IMG/VR virus record: IMGVR_UViG_3300013126_000229
Span: 1 to 24,771 of that record
Reading direction: 5' to 3' (one strand)
From: a virus
DNA: 24,771 bases
Notes under the pieces: generated by a model
Databases searched by the model: none
What the model saw: the letters and a program-made list of their open reading frames with translations, nothing else
Told to the model about the DNA's origin: nothing
Program-made: the position numbers and the translations under genes
In this document: in pieces, positions 3,475 to 22,170 of the stretch
Position numbering within the stretch: the first letter of the stretch is position 1
Layout: every line of letters begins with the position of its first letter

Positions 3475-5480
3475 TGACCCTTTCCCGAGGCTGCTGCTGC
3501 GGTCCACGCTGTATTCGTGACTGCATCTTCAACACCGAGATTGACAGCGGTTGTTGCCATCACGCCGATACGCTCCTGCTTTGGAGCGAGCGCCCAGGAT
3601 ATACGGTGTCGCAGCATTTCCGTCAGGCCGGGGTCAATCCCGGAGATCCTGTGTGCGAAATCTGCTACTCGCACACGCAGGGCGCAATGTTGCCCGTGCA
3701 GTCGATCTACAAGTTCCACAGTTGCCGATTCGTCCTGCGTTACGCGCAGCTCGATGATCCGGTCAATCTGATCGAGCTGCCGACGTACAACAACATTTTC
3801 ATGCAAGGAGAAGCTTGCAAGAATCCTTGCTGCCATCCCGAGTACGACCCAGATCAATGCTGCTACACGGTGTTCCCACCGGCTCCGGGAGAGCAGCCGT
3901 GCCTATGCGACACTTGGTTTGGCACAGGTCGTGGTGGCCTGTCAAACTCGCGCAAGGACGATCTTGCGAACGACGCCACGACTTCGTGGTTCATCGACAT
4001 GACCTGTCACAAGGATGGTCTTCCGCTCGGCGCAGGAGTTCCAAGGCTATATGACCAGTTCCTGTGCCTCGTCTTCTATGAGCGTTGGTGGCGCATCTCA
4101 GATTGCCCGGATGGCGTTCGCATTCGCGTCCCCGGTTGCACACAGGGCGCGGGAAGCAATTGTGGCGGCGTTCCGTTCCAGACCGACGATCTCGTTCCAA
4201 AGTGGTGGGTATTCGCCTGTTCCGGAATCCCGCTCTATCAATGCGATCTTGATGATGCGCTCTCAAACGATGTGATCGACGCAGCTGAGTACGCGCAACT
4301 CCTTGCCGATATCGCAGTCGATGGTCAGCCGACGAGCCAAGAGACGCTGAATAAGCTCGCCGATGCCGGGTATATCGCGGCCAAGGATTGGCGACCTGAG
4401 CAGCGTCAGGGATTCATTGATTTGGATGCCAAATTCCCGACCGCTGGTTACGACTTATGCATCGAGGATGTTGAGGACATGGCCGAACTTGGCCCGTTCC
4501 GCAAGCGGTTCTGCGATCAGGATGTCGGCGTGACGAACAGGCCGTATCTGCACAAGGACGATGTGTACGTCGATCAGGCTCCATTGCAGGCGATCTGCAT
4601 GAAGGACTATCCAGGCAATCCGGCGAGTCAGGCAGACTACGACTACTGGCGAGAGCGTCAATGGGTCTACTTCCGAGGCATTCCCGGTGGATGGGCATGG
4701 GTCGATTGGGACGCAGCCGCTGGCACGGGATTGACCGAGGAGCAGGCCATCGCAGCCGGATATGGGCGCAACGGCGGCATCGGTGGCCCCAACGTGCTAG
4801 ACGCGCCAATCCTGTCGTTCCGTGGCGAGCCGCGCCCCCCGGTCAATTGCTCGGCCTGTCCGCAAATCTGTCCGGACACGGTGTACTGCAATCAATGTGA
4901 GGATGACTGTTCGTGGTGCGGCACGGCTCCTCTCGCCGGATGCGATCCGCCGACGAATTGCCGCAAGTTCGCGATCCGGGCGACCTGCGAGGGAGTGCGC
5001 TTCGTCTACAGCCAGTACTACCTCAAGAACGATCTTTCGCTCGTAGAGGGCGTGTGCGAGGCCGATCAGGAGTACGTCTGCCTGTTCACGGTCAACTCGT
5101 ATTTGGTCGAGGCTCGACGCTCGCGCGATTCGTGGCTGGACGAGATTCCATTTACCTGTCGCACGGAGACCCCACCGCTTCCGTCGTATAACGTGTGGCC
5201 GGCGGTGGCTGTCGGTCACCGACCCCCTGCGGCCATGTGTAACGAGATCACGGAACCCGTCAATCCGGCGAGTCCCAAGTACGACGTATCCGACCTGTGC
5301 TGTGGTGGAGGCTGCATTGTGTATACGGAGTGCTTCTACGGAGGCACCAACTTTGGATGTCCAGAGGAAGGTCCGGGCAATCCATGTCCTCCAAACAATG
5401 ACTGCGCTGCGGATGTGTTCGTGGTTCCGGCACAGATTACCTGCATCGGCCACGCGCTCGATTGCGAGGTCATCGAATGA
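3474..5480 (+). CDS. Large cysteine-rich probable virion protein
   Basis: 668 residues with about 50 cysteines by hand count (about 7.5%). These include the N-terminal CCC at 7-9, several CC pairs, and dense clusters around residues 455-500 (repeated Cys-x2/3-Cys spacing) and 610-650. Trp and Tyr are also frequent. No transmembrane helix, signal peptide or enzymatic motif was seen and I do not recognise the family. Size, Cys content and position after the fibre gene suggest a structural appendage held by disulfides or metal, but that is inference. The start is secure: the ATG follows GGAGGAGGA and overlaps the previous stop. The next gene overlaps by 4 nt and is itself a zinc-ribbon protein. 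Confidence 0.7.
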   Translation: MTLSRGCCCGPRCIRDCIFNTEIDSGCCHHADTLLLWSERPGYTVSQHFRQAGVNPGDPVCEICYSHTQGAMLPVQSIYKFHSCRFVLRYAQLDDPVNLIELPTYNNIFMQGEACKNPCCHPEYDPDQCCYTVFPPAPGEQPCLCDTWFGTGRGGLSNSRKDDLANDATTSWFIDMTCHKDGLPLGAGVPRLYDQFLCLVFYERWWRISDCPDGVRIRVPGCTQGAGSNCGGVPFQTDDLVPKWWVFACSGIPLYQCDLDDALSNDVIDAAEYAQLLADIAVDGQPTSQETLNKLADAGYIAAKDWRPEQRQGFIDLDAKFPTAGYDLCIEDVEDMAELGPFRKRFCDQDVGVTNRPYLHKDDVYVDQAPLQAICMKDYPGNPASQADYDYWRERQWVYFRGIPGGWAWVDWDAAAGTGLTEEQAIAAGYGRNGGIGGPNVLDAPILSFRGEPRPPVNCSACPQICPDTVYCNQCEDDCSWCGTAPLAGCDPPTNCRKFAIRATCEGVRFVYSQYYLKNDLSLVEGVCEADQEYVCLFTVNSYLVEARRSRDSWLDEIPFTCRTETPPLPSYNVWPAVAVGHRPPAAMCNEITEPVNPASPKYDVSDLCCGGGCIVYTECFYGGTNFGCPEEGPGNPCPPNNDCAADVFVVPAQITCIGHALDCEVIE

Positions 5481-5905
5481 GAAAGATGTATTTTCGACAA
5501 GGCAAGTCCTACAGCACGGATGATTTGCCAAAGGCGACTGTCCGAGAAATCAATGCTGCATCTGAGACTGTGCCTGAGCGCGAGGTGACGGTTTCTAATG
5601 TCAAGAAGTACCTGACTGCGGAAGCGTCCTTGCAGCTCTATGGGCCTGTGACCGATGCGGTATACGAGGAGCGCAAGGCACAATGCATTGCTTGTCCGAA
5701 GCGCATGGTTACCGACAAGCTTCCTGACGAGATTGGATTCTGCGCCGGGTGCGGGTGTGGCGTATCGCAGCGCAGCCGACTCACAGTCAAACTGACTATG
5801 CCTGAGCAGAAGTGTCCGTTGGGCAAGTGGGGTCCATCGCCAGGTCGCCATCGCAAACTGCGCGATCGAATCAGGGCATGGTTTGCTCAACTCACAATTG
5901 GCTGA
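5477..5905 (+). CDS. Zinc-ribbon phage protein (CxxC...CxxCxC...CPLGKW)
   Basis: 142 residues from the ATG at 5477, chosen over an in-frame ATG at 5462 because it makes the ATGA overlap seen across this operon. Cys70-x2-Cys73, Cys89-x2-Cys92-Gly-Cys94 and Cys113-Pro-Leu-Gly-Lys-Trp form a metal-binding module that I recognise as a recurrent ending of phage proteins near tail genes. The first 65 residues are polar and helical. It closes the left-hand late operon and is translationally coupled to the Cys-rich protein, so it may help assemble or load metal into it. The function is not established. Confidence 0.65.
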   Translation: MRKMYFRQGKSYSTDDLPKATVREINAASETVPEREVTVSNVKKYLTAEASLQLYGPVTDAVYEERKAQCIACPKRMVTDKLPDEIGFCAGCGCGVSQRSRLTVKLTMPEQKCPLGKWGPSPGRHRKLRDRIRAWFAQLTIG

Positions 5906-5924
5906 TCGCAAGAAAATTTGCGAT
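5905..5924 (+). promoter_or_regulatory. Palindromic operator, site 1
   Basis: ATCGCAAGAAAATTTGCGAT: 7-bp arms ATCGCAA/TTGCGAT around a 6-nt A/T-rich centre. Its last T is the first base of a consensus -35 box, so a bound protein would cover RNA polymerase. Two further copies occur at 19373 and 21633, each in a control region. Interpretation as a repressor operator is inference. Confidence 0.65.
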
Positions 5925-5952
5925 TGACAACCGTCTAACAAGCCGATAGAGT
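5924..5952 (+). promoter_or_regulatory. Sigma70-type promoter of the recombination operon
   Basis: TTGACA (5924-5929) and TAGAGT (5947-5952) are separated by 17 bp. This is the best consensus promoter in the window. Transcription would start near 5958-5960, exactly where the interleaved inverted repeats of the leader begin. The overlapping palindrome suggests repression in lysogeny or late infection. Confidence 0.7.
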
Positions 5953-5958
5953 GTCTGC

Positions 5959-6031
5959 GCCACCAAGACGAACACCCGATCCCCCTGCTGCCTCCGGCCT
6001 TGGTGGCTCCGATTCGGCGGCAGCAGGGGGA
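5959..6031 (+). ncRNA. Structured mRNA leader with interleaved stems (pseudoknot or switch candidate)
   Basis: Stem 1 pairs GCCACCAAG (5959-5967) with CTTGGTGGC (5999-6007), 9 perfect pairs. Stem 2 pairs 5980-5992 with 6019-6031, 13 perfect pairs (core CCCCCTGCTGCC/GGCAGCAGGGGG). The arms are interleaved, so the RNA could form an H-type pseudoknot or two mutually exclusive hairpins. It starts at the predicted transcription start and ends a few bases before the AAGGAG ribosome site (6035-6040) of the exonuclease gene, so it could control translation. It has no following T-run, so it is not a simple terminator. I do not match it to a known riboswitch class. Confidence 0.55.
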
Positions 6032-6048
6032 CTTAAAGGAGCCTGATA

Positions 6049-6870
6049 ATGGTAGAAATCAGACGAGATATGCCCTCGCGGGATTATCACGCAATCGTGG
6101 CCGCATCGGCATCGCGACTCAAGGAGTTCATGCGATCGCCAGCGCACCTGAGAGCGATGGACGGCTATCCGAAGCAATCGTCGGCGTTTGCGCTCGGTGA
6201 GGCGTTCCACGCCTGCGTCCTTGAGCCGCAGCGGTTTCGATCTGAGTTCACGACCGCTCCTGATATTGATCGCCGCACTACCGCTGGCAAGGCGCATTGG
6301 GCTGCGTTTGTCGAGGAGAATCAGGGCAAGACGATTCTGTCTGCGGATGACTACGCGACAACGTGGGAGATGGCCGAGTCGGCTAGACGGCACTCGACCG
6401 CTGGCGAACTGCTTGGCGGGTTGACGGAGCGCGAATTGTCGATCCTGTGGACGGCGACTTGGCCGAACGGCACGATTCCCTGCAAGGCTCGTATTGACGG
6501 TTACAACCTTGAACAGCGTTGCATCGTGGATTTGAAGTCAACTACCGACGCAAGTCGCGCTGGTTTCACAAAATCCGTTGCCAACTTCTCATATCACATT
6601 CAAGCCGTGTGGTACATCACCGCGATGAAGAACGCCGGGTTCGATGTCGAGAGCATGGTGTTCGTCGCCGTCGAGAAGGAGCGCCCTTGGGGCGTTGCCT
6701 GCTACACGCTCGACCACGATGCGATCATGGAAGGCGCGATGGCGATCGCCCACGCGCTGCCGAGACTGATTGATTGCGTGACGCGCAACACTTGGCCGGC
6801 ATACACGGAGCTCATCGAGACCATTTCCCTTCCGCGCTGGAAGGTCGCCAAAGCGGAGGAGACGCTGTGA
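6049..6870 (+). CDS. PD-(D/E)XK exonuclease, RecE-C/DUF3799-like
   Basis: 273 residues. N-terminal 'YHAIVAASASRLKEFMRSP' and 'FALGEAFHACVLEP' (about 47-60) are the usual opening of phage PDDEXK_12/RecE C-terminal-type nucleases. The core is Asp150, then Asp161-Leu-Lys163 (the D...DxK catalytic triad arrangement) and a Tyr-His-Ile-Gln motif at 182-185. Such enzymes resect double-stranded ends to give 3' single strands for an annealing protein, here encoded two genes downstream. AAGGAG lies 8 nt before the ATG. It is the first gene of the operon driven from 5924 and follows the structured leader, so its translation may be controlled. Confidence 0.85.
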   Translation: MVEIRRDMPSRDYHAIVAASASRLKEFMRSPAHLRAMDGYPKQSSAFALGEAFHACVLEPQRFRSEFTTAPDIDRRTTAGKAHWAAFVEENQGKTILSADDYATTWEMAESARRHSTAGELLGGLTERELSILWTATWPNGTIPCKARIDGYNLEQRCIVDLKSTTDASRAGFTKSVANFSYHIQAVWYITAMKNAGFDVESMVFVAVEKERPWGVACYTLDHDAIMEGAMAIAHALPRLIDCVTRNTWPAYTELIETISLPRWKVAKAEETL

Positions 6871-7187
6871 AAGAGATCATCGAACCAGTTCACTTGATTC
6901 CGAAGTTCAGCATTGGGGTTCAAATCCATGAGAACCACGACGAGTGCGTCGATCATATGATCGAGGACTTGGGGGATATGCTGTCCCGCCTTGACAAGGT
7001 GTATGAGCGTTTCGACCGCAAGTACGGCGACGATATGGACAGCAACCATGTGCGTTTGCCTGGAGACCTGTTCTGCAAGGTCTTCTTCGAGATGCAGGAC
7101 ATGGTCGAGTACCTGAGATGGATCCGCCAGCAGAAGGGCATTTCGCAGTTCAACTACAACTGCATCGAGCAAGGAGAGACCGAATGA
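6867..7187 (+). CDS. Unknown small protein of the recombination operon
   Basis: 106 residues from a GTG at 6867 that overlaps the exonuclease stop (GTGA), preceded by GGAGGAG. Longer upstream reading in this frame is a shadow of the exonuclease gene. The protein is acidic and helical with several His/Asp/Met residues ('[18 protein letters not shown]', '[13 protein letters not shown]'). Not recognised. It sits between exonuclease and annealing protein, a slot where phages often place a small helper or inhibitor of host nucleases, but nothing in the sequence proves this. Its stop overlaps the next ATG by 4 nt. Confidence 0.7.
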
Positions 7188-8086
7188 CGCAGCTTGCCAT
7201 TCGACAACTTGATAGCGACAAGGTTGGATTGATCGCCCGGACGATCGCCAAAGGTGCTTCCAACGACGAGCTCGAACTGTTCGTCGCCATCTGCAACCGC
7301 ACCGGACTCGATCCGTTCGCTCGTCAGATATTCGCCATCAAGCGGTGGGACAGTCGTGAGCGGCGCGAGGTCATGCAGACTCAAGTCAGCATCGACGGCG
7401 CGCGGCTCGTGGCGCAGCGCAGCGGTGAGTACGCAGGACAGGACGGCCCATACTGGTGCGGCGAGGACGGCGTATGGAAGGATGTGTGGCTGGCGAAGAC
7501 CCCGCCTGTGGCTGCTCGCGTGGGAGTCGCGCGGCGGGGCTTCGTCCAACCGCTCTATGCGGTCGCGCTGTGGAGCGAATACTGCCAGCGGAACAAGGAG
7601 GGTCAGCCGACAGGGCAATGGCCGAAGATGCCTGCGCTCATGCTCGCCAAGTGCGCTGAAATGCTTGCGCTTCGCAAGGCATTTCCTGCCGAGCTGAGTG
7701 GCCTGTACAGCCCGGAGGAGATGTCTCAGGCCGATGTTCCCGCTCCTGCGTTTCATCTGGCGCAGCAGGAGCCTCGCCAAGGCAATCCTGCCGTCGATCA
7801 GGCCGAAGAGGAGGCTATTCGCTCCGAGGCCGCAGAGGTCAATCACGCTGCTCTTTCGACAGCTCAGAAGACAATCTCGTCGGCGGAAGCCAAGGCACTT
7901 GCCAAGGCTTTGGCTGGCAAGGGATTGACAATCGAGGATCTGAAGGCGACAATGTTCAAGGCGGGATTGGCTGGAGGAGATGACATCACCGCATGGCCTG
8001 CGGAGTGGCTTCCAAGAATCCAATCATGGATCAAGGCGCAGCGCAGCCGAAAGGTTGCAGCCGCATCCACCGACGTTTCAGCATGA
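7184..8086 (+). CDS. bet: RecT/Bet family single-strand annealing protein
   Basis: 300 residues from the ATG at 7184, which overlaps the previous stop and follows AAGGAGAG. Residues about 20-190 carry the Bet/RecT family signature: '[28 protein letters not shown]', '[26 protein letters not shown]', then the Trp-Pro-x-Met-Pro-x-Leu-Met-Leu-x-Lys-Cys-Ala-Glu segment and the '[18 protein letters not shown]' ending. The C-terminal 110 residues are Ala/Glu-rich and variable, as is normal. It should anneal complementary single strands made by the exonuclease for recombination-dependent replication or repair. The operon ends in the terminators that follow. Confidence 0.9.
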
Positions 8087-19372: not shown

Positions 19373-19392
19373 ATCGAAAGAAAATTTGCGAT
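19373..19392. promoter_or_regulatory. Palindromic operator, site 2
   Basis: ATCGAAAGAAAATTTGCGAT, one mismatch from site 1 (5905), including the same A/T-rich centre and the following TTG. A second TTTGCGAT lies 18 bp upstream (19367-19374), giving a direct repeat. It sits between the divergent operons. Confidence 0.6.
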
Positions 19393-21553: not shown

Positions 21554-21631
21554 GTTGCAGACTTGTTGCACAACTGTTGTCGAAATGTTGTTGACAAACA
21601 GGCGATGTTGCACACAAGTTGCAGACTGTTG
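21554..21631 (+). repeat. Helically phased GTTG repeats (about 11-bp period)
   Basis: GTTG begins at 21554, 21565, 21576, 21587, 21607, 21618 and 21628. Steps are 11, 11, 11, 20, 11 and 10 bp; four of the seven read GTTGCA. Such phasing puts every copy on the same face of the helix. Iterons or a multi-site activator are the leading readings. A TTGACA (21591-21596) lies inside but lacks a matching -10. Confidence 0.6.
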
Positions 21632-21632
21632 G

Positions 21633-21652
21633 ATCGCAAGTTTTCTTGCGAT
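21633..21652. promoter_or_regulatory. Palindromic operator, site 3
   Basis: ATCGCAAGTTTTCTTGCGAT, 8-bp arms ATCGCAAG/CTTGCGAT with a TTTT centre, 17 bp before the ATG of the sigma-like gene. It shares the outer arms with sites at 5905 and 19373. So close to the start codon, binding would block transcription or, in RNA, form a hairpin near the ribosome site. Confidence 0.65.
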
Positions 21653-21669
21653 CTGTATTGTTGACGGTC

Positions 21670-22170
21670 ATGGAAGTGACGCAGGATCATTGGAACCGCG
21701 ATTTCGCGACGGCCTGTAGGGTGTTGCGGACGAAGTCTATTGGGATTTTGGACGCGGATGACTTGGTTCAGGATGCCTGGTTGAGTTTTCTGCGGAACGG
21801 GCATGATGGCCGGCACATGGCTCGGAAGCTGGGGTTTCTGTATCGGACGGCGTGTCGGGACAACCGACGTGCGAAGCGGTTCGTGGAGATGGATGTGGAG
21901 CCTGCCTGGAAGCCGCGTGTGGGGGCTGGCGAGGCTTTGGAGTCTCTAAGGACGTGTGGGTTGTCCAAGGTTTCTGAGTCTGTCTTTGAGGGTTTGCTGA
22001 TGGGGTTGACTCGCATGGAGATCGCGCGACGATTGGATCTGACCATTGCCACGGTGAACTGGATCGTGGCTCGGTGGAGGAATCGCGTTGCTGCGGGGGT
22101 ATGCCATGCTGGACGATCTCGAAGGGGTGATCCGGGTGACTCGCGAGAACATGACGGAGGACGAGGATGA
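21670..22170 (+). CDS. ECF-like RNA polymerase sigma factor
   Basis: 166 residues from ATG 21670. Residues 28-42 ('DADDLVQDAWLSFLRN') match sigma70 region 2 (core-binding/-10 recognition helix), and residues about 112-138 ('GLTRMEIARRLDLTIATVNWIVARWRNR') match the region 4 HTH. No region 3 or 1, so the ECF layout. Phage sigma factors redirect host polymerase to late genes; here it heads the terminase/portal operon, which fits. The last 25 residues look less protein-like, and the +1 frame there ('MLDDLEGVIRVTRENM') looks better, so a frameshift near 22085 is possible. Ribosome site is weak. Stop overlaps the terminase ATG by 4 nt. Confidence 0.7.
   Translation: MEVTQDHWNRDFATACRVLRTKSIGILDADDLVQDAWLSFLRNGHDGRHMARKLGFLYRTACRDNRRAKRFVEMDVEPAWKPRVGAGEALESLRTCGLSKVSESVFEGLLMGLTRMEIARRLDLTIATVNWIVARWRNRVAAGVCHAGRSRRGDPGDSREHDGGRG

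Follow-up and report, generated by a model that had tools for sequence, protein, structure and literature searches.

A 5'-terminal pseudoknot RNA predicted by covariation in the leader of a phage recombination operon

Judging from comparative sequence analysis, the leader in front of a RecE-like exonuclease gene in an IMG/VR viral record contains a real, apparently undescribed phage RNA, namely a pseudoknot located at the 5' terminus of the transcript. This conclusion follows from the covariation across seven leaders, the fixed register with respect to the predicted transcription start, the polarity of the G-U pairs and the lack of a match in Rfam. Given that the fold is preserved among related phages although the sequence has almost wholly changed, the leader is very probably a genuine control element of the recombination operon, and it probably serves as a brake on the synthesis of the recombination enzymes.

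Two interleaved stems in front of the exonuclease gene

The window, i.e., the whole stretch of DNA that was analyzed, is a record of 24,771 bp (57.7% G+C) with a phage-type gene set that includes a RecE-like exonuclease (DUF3799), RecT, a helicase, a C5 DNA methylase, RusA, an integrase and the large terminase. The exonuclease gene heads a series of genes downstream of a TTGACA-17-TAGAGT promoter, the sole promoter-like site detected in the leader region. Between this promoter and the ribosome site of the exonuclease gene lie two perfect stems, P1 (9 bp) and P2 (13 bp), in the order a-b-a'-b'. The features are as follows (L numbers denote the related leaders introduced in the next section):

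5905-5924 (+): palindrome ATCGCAAGAAAATTTGCGAT, a probable operator, which ends at the -35 box of the exonuclease promoter
5924-5929 and 5947-5952 (+): -35 and -10 boxes of a sigma-70-type promoter, TTGACA-17 nt-TAGAGT (10 of 12 matches, 0.2 expected)
5959-5967 (+): 5' strand of P1 (a), GCCACCAAG, starting at the predicted +1; GCCACC is invariant in 7/7 leaders and the inner 3 bp covary
5968-5979 (+): loop 1, with the semi-conserved GAACACCC; CACC is present in 6/7 leaders and absent from L252
5980-5992 (+): 5' strand of P2 (b), TCCCCCTGCTGCC
5993-5998 (+): loop 2, TCCGGC
5999-6007 (+): 3' strand of P1 (a'), CTTGGTGGC
6002-6010 (+): GGTGGCTCC, which is longer than any other invariant block in the leader and extends past P1
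6008-6018 (+): loop 3, which pairs with loop 1 in L254, L255 and L257 in a probable third interleaved helix
6019-6031 (+): 3' strand of P2 (b'), GGCAGCAGGGGGA
6036-6041 (+): Shine-Dalgarno sequence AAGGAG, 4 nt past P2, with the ATG at 6049
6049-6870 (+): RecE-like exonuclease, DUF3799, PHROG 412 exonuclease VIII, the gene directly behind the element in 7/7 phages
7118-8086 (+): RecT-family single-strand annealing protein, a candidate regulator, with the true start perhaps at 7184

A pair of perfect interleaved stems this long (at least 9 and at least 13 bp, within 100 nt) is unique in the 24.8-kb window and never arose when the whole window was shuffled 60 times with its dinucleotides preserved; together with the covariation in seven leaders, this result rules out a chance origin of the stems. 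The first-pass annotation of this DNA had reported the two perfect stems and their interleaved order, considered them very unlikely to arise by chance, and described them as extending from the predicted transcription start to a point just before the ribosome site of a DUF3799/RecE-like exonuclease gene that is followed by recT. All these observations hold: the predicted +1 (~5958-5960) corresponds to the first base of P1, and P2 ends at 6031.

In nested folding of the leaders, P1 belongs to the best fold before b' is transcribed and P2 replaces it afterwards, with P2 alone contributing -26 to -36 kcal/mol; the Shine-Dalgarno sequence is directly paired in neither nested conformation.

Covariation across seven leaders

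When the exonuclease and RecT proteins were used as queries, seven relatives were identified which, one near-duplicate being set aside, make up with the window a set of seven distinct leaders. The relatives, with the identity of their exonucleases to that of the window, are:

L004/L251: 77%
L008/L252 and the near-duplicate L009/L253: 52%
L006/L254: 51%
L007/L255: 51%
L256: 50%
L005/L257: 44%

The same architecture is found directly upstream of the exonuclease gene in all seven distinct leaders, i.e., in the window and in six relatives whose exonucleases are 44-77% identical to that of the window. The sequence of P2 differs among the leaders (TCCCCCTGCTGCC in the window, GCTCCCGACAGACGCG in L252, CGCCTCTGTCACCGC in L254 and CCCCCGTCCCGCGCG in L255), and in each of them the 5' strand has a perfect or G-U complement downstream, such that all 91 cells of P2 (100%) are paired and 12 of its 13 pairs show double compensatory changes. 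P1 consists of an invariant 6-bp core, GCCACC/GGTGGC, and three pairs with compensatory changes; these inner pairs covary in the window, L251, L252 and L256 (A-U, U-A, C-G, G-C and G-U), whereas in L254, L255 and L257 the helix is instead lengthened outward by GA:TC. P2 comprises 13-16 bp and the complete element 73-112 nt, with loops of 12-33 (loop 1), 2-18 (loop 2) and 8-18 nt (loop 3); the distance from the end of P2 to the ATG, 13-21 nt, is short and fairly constant.

For the whole set of 7 sequences and 24 pairs, 92.9% of the cells are paired, compared with 68.9 +/- 2.3% in shuffles and 41-48% when the partner strands are slid; double changes are present at 15 pairs, and the covariation score is 0.694, against 0.162 in shuffles and at most 0.125 with slid partners. 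The pairs were counted on hand-picked strands of equal length because the MAFFT alignment of the full leaders misplaces P2. Such picking biases the count in favor of the structure; the count is nevertheless safe given the slid controls and a P2 sequence that has turned over completely. The covariation search across homologous leaders that had been suggested in the first-pass annotation as a check of its pseudoknot or RNA switch has thus come out in favor of this proposal, with both stems kept through compensatory changes in the six other distinct leaders.

Several lines of evidence tie the element to the transcript and to the exonuclease gene. In each of the seven leaders, a -35/-10 pair can be read at a matching register (weakly in L252, TTGCAT/TACGCT), and the first base of P1 lies 7-8 nt past the -10 box throughout despite the varying loop lengths, so that the transcript is expected to start inside P1 irrespective of loop size. 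A transcription start downstream of 6007, which according to the earlier annotation would speak against the structure, is therefore unlikely. G-U pairs on the plus strand (A-C on the other strand) occur in P2 of L251 and L257 and in P1 of L256, and there are zero A-C cells in P2, which favors the plus strand as the structured transcript. In L256, the gene just upstream is different, yet the leader and the exonuclease gene are still together, indicating that the element belongs to the latter. There is one copy of the element per genome according to a pattern scan of the records, except that in L255, where the P1 spacing exceeds the pattern, the element was examined at its leader. Comparative evidence demonstrates, on the level of sequence, both predicted helices, their fixed register with the predicted promoter, the strict link to the exonuclease gene and the polarity of an RNA strand.

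The first-pass annotation left a choice between an H-type pseudoknot and two alternative hairpins. The latter, with P1 forming first and then giving way to P2, accords with the order in which the two stems appear in nested folding, but both helices covary in the same molecules, which favors the pseudoknot and makes a simple choice between hairpins less likely. Since P1 is conserved and covarying, P2 probably does not simply abolish it, and the interleaved helices with covariation support have the arrangement of an H-type pseudoknot. We infer that both helices form simultaneously in one molecule; the loops of 12, 6 and 11 nt in the window seem long enough for this, judging from general pseudoknot geometry.

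Additional pairing was detected in some of the leaders. Loops 1 and 3 can form a helix in L254 (2367-2471; GAACGCA/TGCGTTC, p 0.016), L255 (2368-2479; GAGAACC/GGTTCTC, p 0.023) and L257 (2382-2480; GAACCG/CGGTTC, p 0.054), the leaders with the longer loops, but not significantly in the window, L251, L252 and L256 (Fisher statistic for all seven leaders, 29.2 on 14 d.f.). Thus, an a-c-b-a'-c'-b' arrangement is probable in these three sequences. In addition, a small hairpin is present in loop 2 of L254 and L257 and, weakly, of L255, which also has a hairpin in loop 1. A hairpin within P2, GG[UGGCU]CC, was rejected, its pairing being not above that in shuffles (combined z -0.38).

Searches for known families and additional members

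The Rfam 15 covariance models, including riboswitches, STAXI, ribozymes and leaders, produced no matches to the whole window at the gathering score, consistent with the earlier statement that the leader resembles no known riboswitch, and at a lax threshold the leader and its six relatives gave chance-level matches only. STAXI (RF01728) is similar to the present element in being a pseudoknot near genes for DNA-handling proteins but differs in forming tandem pseudoknot repeats and in its occurrence in Enterobacteriales. An HDV-like ribozyme was dropped because loop 2 can be as short as 2 nt, which leaves no room for the P3 hairpin, and because the 5' end is set by the promoter.

Three pattern scans of IMG/VR revealed no new member, and none was present among the matches listed from a fourth IMG/VR scan and from a pattern scan of a part of the bacterial genome collection. 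As a control, the best interleaved second stem was scored in unrelated GCCACC...GGTGGCTCC matches from viral contigs (90 of 91 listed): the scores are mostly 4-8 and at most 11.6 among these listed matches, compared with 13-16 in the members of the family. Apart from the relatives described above, the exonuclease searches of viral contigs, phage records and 757 sampled bacterial genomes yielded proteins with no more than ~40% identity, and the element is absent from the examined leaders of these; in several of them, the exonuclease gene starts near the preceding gene or overlaps it. In the open-access literature, no paper was recognized as describing such an element.

Possible functions of the element and its surroundings

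Tentatively, we consider the element to be an RNA that acts in cis from the very 5' end of the exo-recT mRNA and that would function, most likely, as a translational operator, similarly to the T4 gene 32 pseudoknot, although homology is not claimed. In T4, T2 and RB69, gp32 binds a 5' pseudoknot and represses translation (PMC535899, PMC3014915). As in gene 32, a leader pseudoknot is located upstream of the Shine-Dalgarno sequence of a phage mRNA for a DNA-recombination/replication protein, and the topology is kept while the sequence diverges (PMC535899, PMC3014915). The differences are that the gene 32 element spans ~28 nt and lies ~67 nt from the start codon, as opposed to 73-112 nt and 13-21 nt here; that it is followed by an A/U-rich stretch of 40 or more nt, which is missing here, where P2 reaches 13-16 bp; and that gene 32 encodes an SSB whereas the genes here are those of RecE and RecT. 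Of the UUAAA repeats along which gp32 spreads, a single UUAAA is found in the window (6033-6037) and none in the other leaders; as it lacks such a region for spreading, the element is not assigned to the gene 32 class.

The rpsO (S15) operator differs from the phage element in belonging to a ribosomal-protein gene and in its unrelated sequence and helix sizes. What the two have in common is a pseudoknot, in rpsO as part of the translational operator of a bacterial mRNA under autogenous control (PMC3014915).

Under the operator model, P1 would form first during transcription, when the 5' end of the mRNA pairs with the invariant GGTGGC; once b' emerges, P2 would be added, resulting in a compact pseudoknot. 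The first nucleotide of the mRNA would then be buried in P1, and the 3' edge of the knot would lie 13-21 nt before the start codon, beside the Shine-Dalgarno sequence, where it could hinder loading of the 30S subunit on the exonuclease gene and the coupled downstream genes. A protein recognizing the invariant face formed by P1, GGTGGCTCC and ACACC might stabilize or melt the knot; the first-pass annotation had suggested that the leader could respond to a ligand, a protein or replication state. RecT, encoded in the same operon, belongs to a single-stranded DNA-binding protein family too and is the obvious candidate; the most economical scenario, by analogy with T4 gene 32, would be that it acts as an autogenous repressor when its DNA substrate is scarce. 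With considerably less confidence, one could envisage a new family of phage RNAs, promoter-proximal 5'-terminal pseudoknots in which the P1/GGTGGCTCC face is invariant and P2 is very long and free to vary in sequence (with a third interleaved helix, a-c-b-a'-c'-b', in one subgroup); through such RNAs, a phage recombinase might sense how much of it is present, or how much single-stranded DNA is available, and control RecE/RecT synthesis.

Pseudoknot leaders that control phage genes for DNA metabolism are scarcely known outside the T4-type gene 32, and an additional, unrelated example from a RecE/RecT operon, if true, would show how phages dose their recombinases. RecE/RecT-type pairs are widely used as genetic tools, and the alignment provides seven natural variants with compensatory changes as a ready test set. 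A 2010 review noted that gene 32 may be the sole viral pseudoknot used in translational autoregulation (PMC3014915).

Among the alternatives, all of which appear unlikely, the one that fares best is antitermination of the Put type, whereby the nascent fold would bind RNA polymerase and cause read-through of terminators in a long early operon. Like HK022 putL, the element (~73 nt in the window, 5959-6031) is structured from the first bases of an early-type phage transcript, starting at the promoter +1; putRNA needs no phage proteins (PMC9378689), and an invariant core with freely varying stems would suit an RNA that contacts the polymerase. However, putRNA, which acts on RNA polymerase, consists of two consecutive stem-loops (PMC9378689), whereas the stems here are interleaved, and the put sites of HK022 are present in both early operons as opposed to the single copy per genome. 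Next in rank, and likewise unlikely, is protection of the mRNA, with the paired first nucleotide and the stable knot blocking 5'-end-dependent decay so that the recombination enzymes are made for longer: the location of P1 at the predicted +1 in 7/7 leaders would indeed bury the 5' end, but a plain hairpin would be enough for this, and neither the interleaving of the stems nor the invariant core nor the TCC that follows P1 would be accounted for.

A two-state switch, in which the GGTGGCTCC segment in the loop of P2 would pair either with the 5' end (P1, leaving the Shine-Dalgarno sequence free) or with the Shine-Dalgarno sequence (off), is quite improbable. Significant complementarity was detected in the window (GGCTCC at 6005-6010 with GGAGCC at 6038-6043, p 0.027), L252 (2396-2503; TGGCTCC:GGAGCCA, p 0.024) and L256 (2394-2503; GTGGCTCCA:TGGAGCCAC, 9 bp, p 0.0003), but not in L251, L254, L255 and L257, i.e., in 3/7 leaders only; moreover, the 6-nt link from P2 in the window is short for spanning 13 bp, and any Shine-Dalgarno sequence is expected to show some complementarity to CUCC.

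A compact pseudoknot with variable stems around an invariant core is the fold of several riboswitches, and the invariant GCCACC/GGTGGCTCC and nearly invariant ACACC could by the same logic be residues of an aptamer that bind a metabolite. Such a small-molecule riboswitch is nevertheless improbable, and ranks behind the two-state switch, considering that there is little conserved unpaired sequence, that the element is restricted to one phage clade and one gene, and that even lax thresholds gave no Rfam match.

Transcription attenuation with P2 as an intrinsic terminator and P1 as the antiterminator is very improbable: P2 is rich in G and C, and in 7/7 leaders a short run (e.g., CTT or TTT) comes next, but the 8 bases after the stem contain only 2-5 T (5 in L255 alone), and a terminator scan (GC-rich stem, then at least 5 T in 8 bases) found none on the plus strand of the leader region. 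We give equally little credence to a single-stranded DNA structure, an origin or recombination signal, which had been considered for STAXI (PMC2864571) and would fit the adjacent recombination genes, since a transcript is indicated by the register fixed to the promoter +1, the position right before the ribosome site and the single polarity of the G-U pairs.

The putative RNA operator is probably complemented by control at the DNA level, with the palindrome ATCGCAAGAAAATTTGCGAT as the operator of a phage regulator. Three copies with at most one mismatch are present in the window (5905-5924, 19373-19392 and, on the minus strand, 21633-21652), whereas 100 shuffles contained no copy even when 3 mismatches were allowed, and related copies were also identified in records G001, G002, G005 and G006.

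The ORF that precedes the leader in the window (5462-5905) codes for a protein of 147 aa that has two CxxC pairs and no Pfam match; in all relatives, this gene is conserved upstream of the element, separated from it by other genes in L256. A 183-aa ORF (21619-22170), which had no match to PHROG and Pfam families, adjoins the terminase gene, contains a sigma-70 region-2-like stretch, DADDLVQDAWLSFLRNG, and carries one of the palindrome copies at its start. On the contig of a RecT relative, L371, positions 5767-6000 are occupied by a dense array of TGTGACGTCACA-type palindromes.
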